Below are positions 34,747 through 38,844 of a stretch of 39,146 nucleotides of DNA, piece after piece. This DNA is from Clostridiaceae bacterium (lineage in GTDB: Bacteria > Bacillota > Clostridia > Saccharofermentanales > DTU023): contig DUVH01000033.1 in NCBI GenBank assembly GCA_012841145.1, forward strand, positions 1 through 39,146. Direction: 5' to 3'. The translations under genes and the position numbers were made by a program. The notes below the pieces were generated by a model, which was not told the origin of the DNA, searched no databases, and saw only the letters and a program-made list of their open reading frames with translations. Position 1 is the first letter of the stretch. Each line of letters begins with the position of its first letter.

Positions 34747-34790
34747 CCGATCGCCTAAACTCCCATCACGTTCTGATGACATAATAGCAC

Positions 34791-34835
34791 CGAATTTTAT
34801 CCGGACCTTTTCAATCGCCGTTTTTCCCGATAAGA
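34791..34835. repeat. left copy of 45-bp direct repeat
   Basis: These 45 bases match 38792-38836 at 44 positions in the same orientation. The single difference is T34821 against C38822. Similarity continues more weakly for about 14 bases on the mazG side. The copy covers the mazG upstream region. Confidence 0.95.
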
Positions 34836-35961: not shown

Positions 35962-37278
35962 ATGGAAATTAAGATGGATTCTTTAGCAGGAGTTCCCGTT
36001 TATCCAGATGTTAAATTGTACGGAAATGTACTTCTGGATATGAGAGTATGGGAGGGTGACGGGTGGAAAGAAGAAACTATGTCATGGAAAGAAGGTTGTT
36101 ATGTTCATTCTGGCCTGAGTGGACCTACGGAAATAACATTTAAAGGTCCAGACGCTCAGAGACTTTTATCCACTGTAAGCATCAACAACTGTTACAAATG
36201 GCCAATTGGAAAATCTAAACACTTGGTTATGTGCGATGAGAATGGACTTATAGCTGGCCACGGGTTAACTGTTCGTGATAGCGAAGATAGCTTTCGCTCT
36301 TTCGCATGTCCTCCTTGGGCTGTATATCAAAACAGCAAATTGAAATATAATGTAGATATTTTTTTCCGCAATATATTTATTGTGCAAGTTGCTGGCCCCA
36401 AATCCTTGCAAGTTATAGAAGAAGTAACAGGAGAAAATCTTCACGACCTTGAATTCTTAAATGTTCACAAAACAAAAATACAAGGAATTGATGCAGAAAT
36501 TGAGGTCTCCCGTATAGGTATGGCCGGCACTCTAGCTTATGAATTACGTGGAGCTTTTGAATTGGGTGCTGCTGTATATGATCTAGTTTATAATGCTGGC
36601 AAGCCTTTGGGGATAAAAAGGCTGGGATGGCGCTCGTATGTAGTTAACCATGTTGAAGGTGGATTCCCGCAATTCAATTGTACATTTACGGGTTCTTGCT
36701 ATTCAGATGCTGAGTATATGAATCAATTTGGGGCTGCTGTAATAGTCGATCTAAGTGGCAGTGTCGATCCCGCAAATTTAAGGGCACGTTACCGTACTCC
36801 GAGTGAAGTTGGGTGGGACTGGATGGCCAAATTCGATCATGATTTTATAGGTAGAAAGGCAGTTGAATCTGAAGTTAATAATCCTAAAAGAAAAATTGTA
36901 ACTTTGCGCTGGAACCCTGATGATGTTTTAGACACATTTGCTTCACTACTCAAACCTGGTGAAGCATATAAGACAATAGAATTACCCTGTGGTCAACTGC
37001 AACCTGCAGGAGGTCATGCGGATTACGTTACAAAAGATGGAAAACAAATTGGCATCTCATCTGGAACAACCTATAGTTACTATTATCGTGAGGTCATTTC
37101 ACATTGTACGATAGATATTGATCAAGCAGAAATCGGTAATGAAGTTTTGGTACACTGGGGTGATTATGGTAAGCGAATAAAAGAGATTCGCGCCGTAGTG
37201 GAACGTTATCCGTACCTTGACTTGCCTCGTAACGAAAATATCGATGTAAATAAGTTATCTTCTGAATTTAGTATCTGA
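35962..37278 (+). CDS. GcvT-fold tetrahydrofolate-dependent methyltransferase (O-demethylase-like)
   Basis: This 438-residue cytosolic protein has the GcvT folate-binding fold: GPDAQRLLSTVSIN near residues 62-75, DENGLIAGHGL near 92-102, VAGPKSLQVIEE, SRIGMAGTLAYELRG, and a C-terminal barrel with PKRKIVTLRW. No gcvH or gcvP is nearby and the sequence departs from the glycine-cleavage enzyme, resembling instead the LigM/DesA/DmdA-type demethylases that pass a methyl group to tetrahydrofolate. Substrate is unknown. AGGAGGG lies upstream of the ATG. The gene is AT-rich compared with the core genome and follows its likely LysR regulator. A strong terminator follows at 37315. A damaged paralog lies next to it. 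Confidence 0.85.
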   Translation: MEIKMDSLAGVPVYPDVKLYGNVLLDMRVWEGDGWKEETMSWKEGCYVHSGLSGPTEITFKGPDAQRLLSTVSINNCYKWPIGKSKHLVMCDENGLIAGHGLTVRDSEDSFRSFACPPWAVYQNSKLKYNVDIFFRNIFIVQVAGPKSLQVIEEVTGENLHDLEFLNVHKTKIQGIDAEIEVSRIGMAGTLAYELRGAFELGAAVYDLVYNAGKPLGIKRLGWRSYVVNHVEGGFPQFNCTFTGSCYSDAEYMNQFGAAVIVDLSGSVDPANLRARYRTPSEVGWDWMAKFDHDFIGRKAVESEVNNPKRKIVTLRWNPDDVLDTFASLLKPGEAYKTIELPCGQLQPAGGHADYVTKDGKQIGISSGTTYSYYYREVISHCTIDIDQAEIGNEVLVHWGDYGKRIKEIRAVVERYPYLDLPRNENIDVNKLSSEFSI

Positions 37279-37314
37279 GCCTAACATCGCAATATTTAAT
37301 AAATCAATAGTTGA

Positions 37315-37347
37315 GAAAACCCTTAACCAAAAGGGTTTTCTTCTTTT
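37315..37347 (+). terminator. terminator after the GcvT-like gene
   Basis: GAAAACCCTT (37315-37324) pairs perfectly with AAGGGTTTTC (37331-37340) around a six-base loop, followed by TTCTTTT. It separates the intact gene from its broken paralog. Confidence 0.85.
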
Positions 37348-37368: not shown

Positions 37369-38537
37369 CATGGGGTAGGTACATGCAATCACTTGGTGCA
37401 ACTGGATGGAAATCACGCTCGCAAAAGGCCAGTGCCGCGGAGTTTAGAGCGAGGAGGTGGCCTTCGGCGACCGAGATTTCCAAACTGGATAAGGATGGTC
37501 TCATTGCTAACCATGCGCTCTTCATGAAGGATGCTGACGATGTCTATCGTACTACAGCGGGATGTCCCTACCCTGTGCTTCCTATGGCGACGAGCGGCAA
37601 ATACGACGTTAAGGTAAAGGAAAAGAATGTCTATGTTTTCCAATTTAGCGGCCCAAAATCCCTTACCATCATCGAGAAAGTAACACAGACCGATTTGCAT
37701 GACCTGAAATTTCTGGAGTTCCGCAAAGTGCGCATTCCCGGACTCGACACCGACATTGAAGTCAACCGTATCGGCATGAGCGGCACACTTGCCTATGAGC
37801 TCCGCGGCGAGCAAGAATGGGGACCCGATGTATATAACGCCTGTTTTGAGGCTGGAAAAGAATATGGTATTAAGCGGCTAGGTTGGCGCGACTATACTGT
37901 CAACCACACGTTTGGCGGTTTCCCCCAGATGACAGTTCATTGGGAGATATCCATTTACAACGATCCTGAGTTCCTGAAAGTCTCCCCCTTCAGGTTGATT
38001 TGTACTGGCAGCGTGGATCCCTCCGATTCTCGCGCCCGTTTCCGTACCCCTGTGGAAGTCGATTGGGAATGGATGGCTAAGTTTAACCATGAGTTTACCG
38101 GTCGCGAGGCTCTGGAAAAGGAGATGGCCAACCCTAAGCGCAAAATCGTCACATTGGAATTCAACAACGAAAACATCATTGATGTCTATGCCTCTCAGTT
38201 TACCAACGATCCCTACAAATATATGGATATGCCTTGTGCCGTGCAGGCGATGTGTGGTGGCCACCAAGACTACGTTACCGATCAGGATGGTAAAGTTATC
38301 GGATTCGCCAGTGTTCCCACCTATTCCAGCCATTACGAGGTGATGGCTGCCCATGCTTCTTTGGATATCCCTGAAATCGAAGAAGGTAGGGAAGTCATTG
38401 TCAAGTGGGGCGACTATGACGCAAAACAGAAGGACCTTCGCGCTACGATCCGTCCTTTCCCCTACATCCGCTACATCGGCGATGTACAGGATAACCGTGA
38501 TTACGACCTGAGCTCTGTCCCCAGCGGGCTCGACTAA
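37369..38537 (+). pseudogene. 5'-truncated, element-interrupted GcvT-like paralog
   Basis: From 37485 to the stop the reading frame is an uninterrupted paralog of the preceding gene (LDKDGLIANHALF, FSGPKSLTIIEK, NRIGMSGTLAYELRG, NPKRKIVTLEF). Homology to that gene also exists just upstream in another frame (37369-37404, reading HGVGTCNHLVQL against WPIGKSKHLVMC), where a 75-bp inverted-repeat element with a flanking duplication has been inserted. The first 79 or so codons are missing and replaced by the terminator region of the neighbour. The ATG at 37383 now gives a 384-residue frame whose first 34 residues are largely element sequence. Loss of the first folate-domain segment makes function unlikely. 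Its GC content is visibly higher than that of the intact copy, so the two probably have different histories. Confidence 0.8.
37400..37490. mobile_element. MITE-like inverted-repeat element with 8-bp target duplication
   Basis: The 8-base sequence AACTGGAT occurs at 37400-37407 and 37483-37490. Between them lie about 75 bases whose ends are inverted repeats: 37408-37431 and 37458-37481 are complementary at 20 of 24 positions, with perfect outer (GGAAATC/GATTTCC) and inner (AAGGCCA/TGGCCTT) blocks and a 26-base loop. It encodes no transposase. A T/A pair next to the ends makes the duplication seven or eight bases. Removing one duplication plus the element (83 bp) restores the paralog reading frame, which is strong support for an insertion. 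Confidence 0.8.
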
Positions 38538-38844
38538 AGACTAGGTAAAGAGTAGAGGGAGAATCTCATCACTTATCTGATTGTTCTTCATCAAGCAGGG
38601 CCATATTGAACGATAAATACTCAAGATCAGTTCAATACTGACATTGAATTGCAAGGGTTCTAACGCCATATAACCTTGGGGCCCTTGCCAGTTCGACATC
38701 CATATTTTTCACTGAGTTGTGTGTCTGCGAAATCTTGTGGGAAATCCGCAAGAGTCCGCATAGTTGTTTCTGCCTAGCAACATGAATGCATCGAATTTTA
38801 TCCGGACCTTTTCAATCGCCGCTTTTCCCGATAAGATGATATAT
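38538..38844. other. intergenic region upstream of lplA
   Basis: No gene is seen. It contains an 8-base perfect inverted repeat TATTGAAC/GTTCAATA (38604-38611, 38630-38637), a loose hairpin GCAAGGG/CCCTTGC near 38650-38691, and the right copy of the 45-bp repeat next to lplA. Confidence 0.5.
38792..38836. repeat. right copy of 45-bp direct repeat
   Basis: This copy matches 34791-34835 at 44 of 45 bases, exactly 4001 bp apart. It lies directly upstream of lplA and holds a TTTTCA-N17-TAAGAT promoter candidate (38809-38837) reading toward that gene. Confidence 0.95.

Follow-up and report, generated by a model that had tools for sequence, protein, structure and literature searches.

The window analysed here is the whole 39,146-nucleotide contig C13 of a Clostridiaceae draft genome (G000; 1.57 Mb in 41 contigs). 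It carries two neighbouring GcvT-like genes, the first of which is intact, whereas the second is interrupted by a short element with inverted ends (Table 1). Both genes encode GCV_T proteins, and their nearest NCBIfam profiles are those of the DesA and LigM O-demethylases, with matches well under the cut-offs.

Table 1 Features of the insertion site and of the two GcvT-like genes, in window coordinates
Feature	Position	Strand	Basis or remark
Intact paralogue, 49% identical, equivalent codon without insertion	35962..37278	+	alignment
Terminator-like hairpin between both genes	37313..37342	+	predicted
Gene remnant left of the insertion (..VGTCNHLVQLD), approximate	37370..37406	+	homology to paralogue
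AACTGGA, target duplication, left copy	37400..37406	+	flank comparison
IS21-derived MITE, TGGAAATC...GATTTCCA, 76 bp	37407..37482	+	coordinates, terminal inverted repeats, covariance model
Left terminal inverted repeat, one IstA-site-like unit	37407..37431	+	18-19/25 against complete IS21 ends (G030/G005)
MITE right 40 bp	37443..37482	-	39/40 with outer end of longer element (C9/C14)
Right terminal inverted repeat	37458..37482		inside MITE right 40 bp
AACTGGA, target duplication, right copy	37483..37489	+	flank comparison
Surviving 3' part of GcvT / O-demethylase-like gene	37490..38537	+	PF01571

The two paralogues differ in G+C content (40% for 35962-37278 vs 50% for 37490-38537, the window being at 51.5%), which hints at different origins. 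A 57-bp direct repeat (34779-34835 and 38780-38836; 91% identical, E 8e-16) encloses a LysR regulator and the two GcvT-like genes, and divergent NUDIX-MazG and lipoate-ligase-like genes lie outside it. The GcvT pair has no counterpart in 59 relatives, and the LysR-GcvT block resembles a cassette that was acquired and whose junction was duplicated.

Structure of the element

The sequence AACTGGAT is present twice, at 37400-37407 and 37483-37490, with 75 bases in between. The left copy ends in a T, its eighth base, that belongs to the element itself, so that the target duplication is 7 bp long and perfect (AACTGGA, 7/7; AACTGGAT if the terminal T of the element is included), and the element, with this shared T counted, measures 76 bp and ends in TG...CA. 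The duplication described in an earlier note, which was made from the sequence alone, is real, but its 8 bp are not needed, as the TG end of the element starts with the last T. The 24-base imperfect inverted ends of that note were confirmed on recounting (20/24 paired, or 21/25 with the T). Each end contains one complete repeat unit and part of a second, and the 76 bp hold no gene, hence neither istA nor istB. When the whole window was scanned for 7-bp exact repeats around 40-150 bp with inverted ends of at least 16/20, this site was the sole match, and 20 mononucleotide shuffles gave 0.

State of the interrupted gene

With 83 bp removed, the locus reads VGTCNHLVQLDKDGLI and can be aligned with IGKSKHLVMCDENGLI of the neighbouring gene and with full-length homologues of about 460-477 residues. 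The excision proposed earlier, in which LVQLDKDGLI is restored and aligned with LVMCDENGLI of the neighbour, thus agrees with both comparisons. The net insertion of 83 bp shifts the reading frame of the gene, and the ORF that begins at ATG 37383 runs through element sequence and, as had been suggested, uses it as a false N terminus. The idea that the MITE disrupts the gene holds for the frame but is incomplete, since about 80 upstream codons are missing as well. Only ~8 codons of homology are found left of the insertion; upstream of VGT the homology stops, and the terminator-like hairpin and intergenic sequence stand in place of the gene. The paralogue has about 81 residues ahead of the VGT point, from which the figure of ~80 missing codons is drawn. 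The MITE sits in a gene that, judged by these alignments, is also 5'-truncated, and it may have struck a gene that was already truncated. An empty site was sought in the 59 relatives, where the GcvT-like gene is absent from all and there was nothing to read, and a search of the phylum sample for the gene gave distant homologues only.

The ORF at 37383-38537 might still be a functional gene to which the MITE has given a new N terminus: its frame is open from ATG 37383 across the element, and 351 codons stay open downstream. However, in the paralogue and homologues part of the ~80 absent N-terminal residues belongs to the folate-binding domain, no promoter-like match was found near the MITE or near this ORF, and a terminator-like hairpin lies upstream. 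Retained function is therefore unlikely, and the ORF is probably not functional.

A family of miniatures

DNA searches, pattern searches and a covariance model of the miniatures (ten copies as input) revealed about 15 copies in four species of the genus (G000, G006, G008 and G011, with nine copies analysed in G008), and 3 further miniatures in a genome of the sister genus (G020). Their lengths range from 46 to 94 bp; the outer ~25 bp are conserved on both sides, and the middle varies in length and sequence. The covariance model matches the window MITE with an E value of 4.7e-17, the window copy itself being in the model. The window's own genome has 2 miniatures, the second of which (contig C38) is 55 bp long and flanked by CAGCTTGG / GCTTGG. 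In a genome collection, a search with the end pattern gave 7 stretches, all in MAGs labelled Clostridiaceae bacterium, and no match in the viral contigs searched with it.

Most miniature copies are flanked by duplications, which are 5-7 bp long and in some cases contain one mismatch; a recognisable duplication is missing in 3/18. To assess these flanks together, a duplication score was summed across the 18 miniatures together with one complete element, and left and right flanks were re-paired at random. The observed sum was 52, against -45 (sd 12) for the permuted flanks, and 0/20000 permutations scored as high. The other copies that the earlier note proposed to look for are thus present, most of them with duplications of 5-7 bp.

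Two of the miniatures deserve mention for their surroundings. The second copy of the window's genome (L004 1440-1620, G000:C38) lies within an apparent remnant of another insertion sequence, a fragment of which is also found in L021. A 51-bp miniature of the sister genus (L157 228-278, G020:C54) lies in an open frame, has a length that is a multiple of three and lacks a recognisable duplication.

Relationship with IS21 elements

Two complete elements with similar ends were found. The first, in G030, is 2590 bp long, has the ends TGGAAACCGCGCTTTC...GGTTTCCA / TGGAAACC...GGTTTCCA and a CATTT duplication, and carries an IstA-like gene (Mu-transposase C-terminal domain), whose frame appears broken close to its end, together with istB (PF01695, IstB_IS21, E 8e-56). 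The second, in G005, which belongs to the genus of the window's genome, is 2611 bp long and has no clear duplication; it carries istB (E 2e-47) and an istA gene with rve and Mu-transposase C-terminal domains. The ends of both, as well as partial ends in G027, G028 and G070, contain 4-5 tandem units of ~21-22 bp around GCGGAG...AAGGCCA. Aligned with the outermost units of these complete elements, the MITE ends agree at 17-19/25 positions, a similarity reached in 0/20000 shuffles.

A further match was found in the window's own genome. Contigs C9 and C14 break off 126-127 bp into an identical longer element, whose end carries tandem repeats as at the istA side of the G030 and G070 elements. The right 40 bp of the MITE differ from this end by one base (39/40), after which the sequences diverge, and this point of divergence is, as far as the alignment tells, the junction expected of an internal deletion. 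The equal stopping length of C9 and C14 resembles an assembly break at a repeat, from which we infer at least two copies of the longer element outside the bin; both contigs presumably end in an autonomous relative of the MITE. At C14 (L002, 1501-1627), this longer IS21-like end interrupts the frame of an ABC-transporter gene, in which it lies. Searches of the contigs assembled for G000, G006, G008 and G011 gave no IstA/IstB relatives. A pair of ends ~800 bp apart on G011:C8 was considered as a parent and rejected, as it comprises apparent fragments of other insertion sequences and has no istA/istB.

Taken as a whole, the element has the attributes of a MITE, being short and without a transposase gene, with terminal inverted repeats, a duplication, dispersed copies and ends that match those of complete IS21 elements and of the longer C9/C14 element. 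It shares with autonomous IS21 elements the TG...CA ends and the duplication size, and lacks istA/istB and two or more tandem repeats per end. As there is no gene in its 76 bp, the MITE is classed as IS21-derived and not as a member of IS21.

Discussion

In this study we describe a MITE that very probably derives from the outer ends of an IS21 element and was inserted in trans by IstA/IstB into a GcvT-like gene. The MITE would have arisen when an IS21-family insertion sequence lost istA and istB and was left with its two outer ends. The IstA transposase with IstB, supplied by a related full-length element, would then recognise, in trans, ends of the form TGGAAATC...GGCCA, and a 7-bp staggered cut would lead to insertion into the GcvT/O-demethylase-like gene, moving its frame by 83 bp. 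IstA/IstB acting in trans is thus the machinery that we infer for the MITE. The earlier note had proposed a non-autonomous element in need of an outside transposase and had named, among the findings against it, the lack of any other copy and of any related transposase. Instead, there are further copies, with duplications, and parent elements whose ends match, and at the level of sequence they lend the proposal strong support.

The gene probably lost its 5' part in an event separate from the MITE insertion. ISPve1, of the IS21 family, produces unidirectional deletions of 0.5-4.5 kb beside its 5' end (PMC3281130), and the truncation could be an adjacent deletion of this type. However, both copies of the duplication are intact and gene sequence remains left of the MITE, so that the missing segment starts away from the element; such a deletion is on these grounds quite unlikely to be the cause.

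TG...CA ends are common to several DDE families, and IstA/IstB are missing from the element's own assembly, so that mobilisation by another family with such ends (IS3, Tn7-like) and a convergent likeness to IS21 might be proposed. Against this, the match between the MITE and IS21 extends beyond the dinucleotide over the full 25-bp repeat, and the ends in C9, C14, G070 and G027 share the ~21-22 bp tandem units with complete istA-istB elements, which makes convergence very improbable. The palindrome might instead belong to a transcribed or structural class of repeats (REP-like, terminator-like or small RNA) that spread by other means, with a flanking repeat that is coincidental. This view finds some ground in the strong hairpin that it forms as RNA (-39.3 kcal/mol, z -4.1), but is in the main refuted by the duplications at most of 19 copies (0/20000 permutations), by ends that match transposon ends and by the lack of a T tract and of any Rfam match, and it retains hardly any credibility.

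Many families of insertion sequences have known miniatures, and the MITE as a kind of element is ordinary. In Pseudomonas syringae, MITEPsy1 has IS5-type ends and MITEPsy2 Tn3-type ends (PMC3189936). Like both, the MITE described here is short and gene-less, with terminal inverted repeats resembling those of a full-length element, and like MITEPsy1 it has a target duplication and is able to interrupt genes. It differs from both in its parent, the two-protein IS21 (IstA and the IstB ATPase), and in duplications of 5-7 bp. Two MITEs of 227 and 336 bp have been described for the IS6 family (PMC7986276); these also combine both ends of an insertion sequence with no ORF between them, but they belong to another family and are 3-4 times longer. 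In the open-access papers that can be searched (thus without ISfinder and most subscription journals), no report of an IS21-derived MITE was found, and a family of this kind with one-repeat ends appears to be undescribed there.

Related to Tn7 and Mu, IS21 serves as a model of two-protein transposition, and the lower limit of its duplication size is 4 bp. IS21 elements end in CA and carry repeats named L1/L2 and R1/R2, and integration of IS5376 in vitro requires both IstA and IstB and gives 5-bp duplications (PMC10122671). ISPve1, ISPve1a and ISPkr1, of the same family, have duplications of 7-8 bp (PMC3281130). With its TG...CA ends and a duplication within the range of 5-8 bp seen in IS5376, ISPve1 and ISPkr1, as well as a 25-bp terminal sequence in common with the G030 and G005 elements, the MITE resembles this family, and its 7-bp duplication fits IS21 biology. 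These elements have at least two terminal repeats at each end, whereas the MITE has a single complete one. For purified IS5376 IstA, two complete repeats per end are required in vitro (PMC10122671), a rule that the one-repeat ends do not fit. Either this IS21 branch needs fewer repeats, or the miniatures became shorter once inserted. A recent insertion of the window MITE is suggested by its perfect duplication and its 39/40 match and is compatible with both alternatives. It is possible, and we put it forward only tentatively, that this IS21 branch moves elements with single-site ends, with miniatures as small as 46-53 bp spreading in the genus and separately in the sister genus and outliving the resident transposase genes.

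As this locus shows, an insertion of 76 bp can create an ORF with a false N terminus. Moreover, a one-repeat family with duplications at most of its insertions constitutes a natural test of the two-repeat requirement of IS21.
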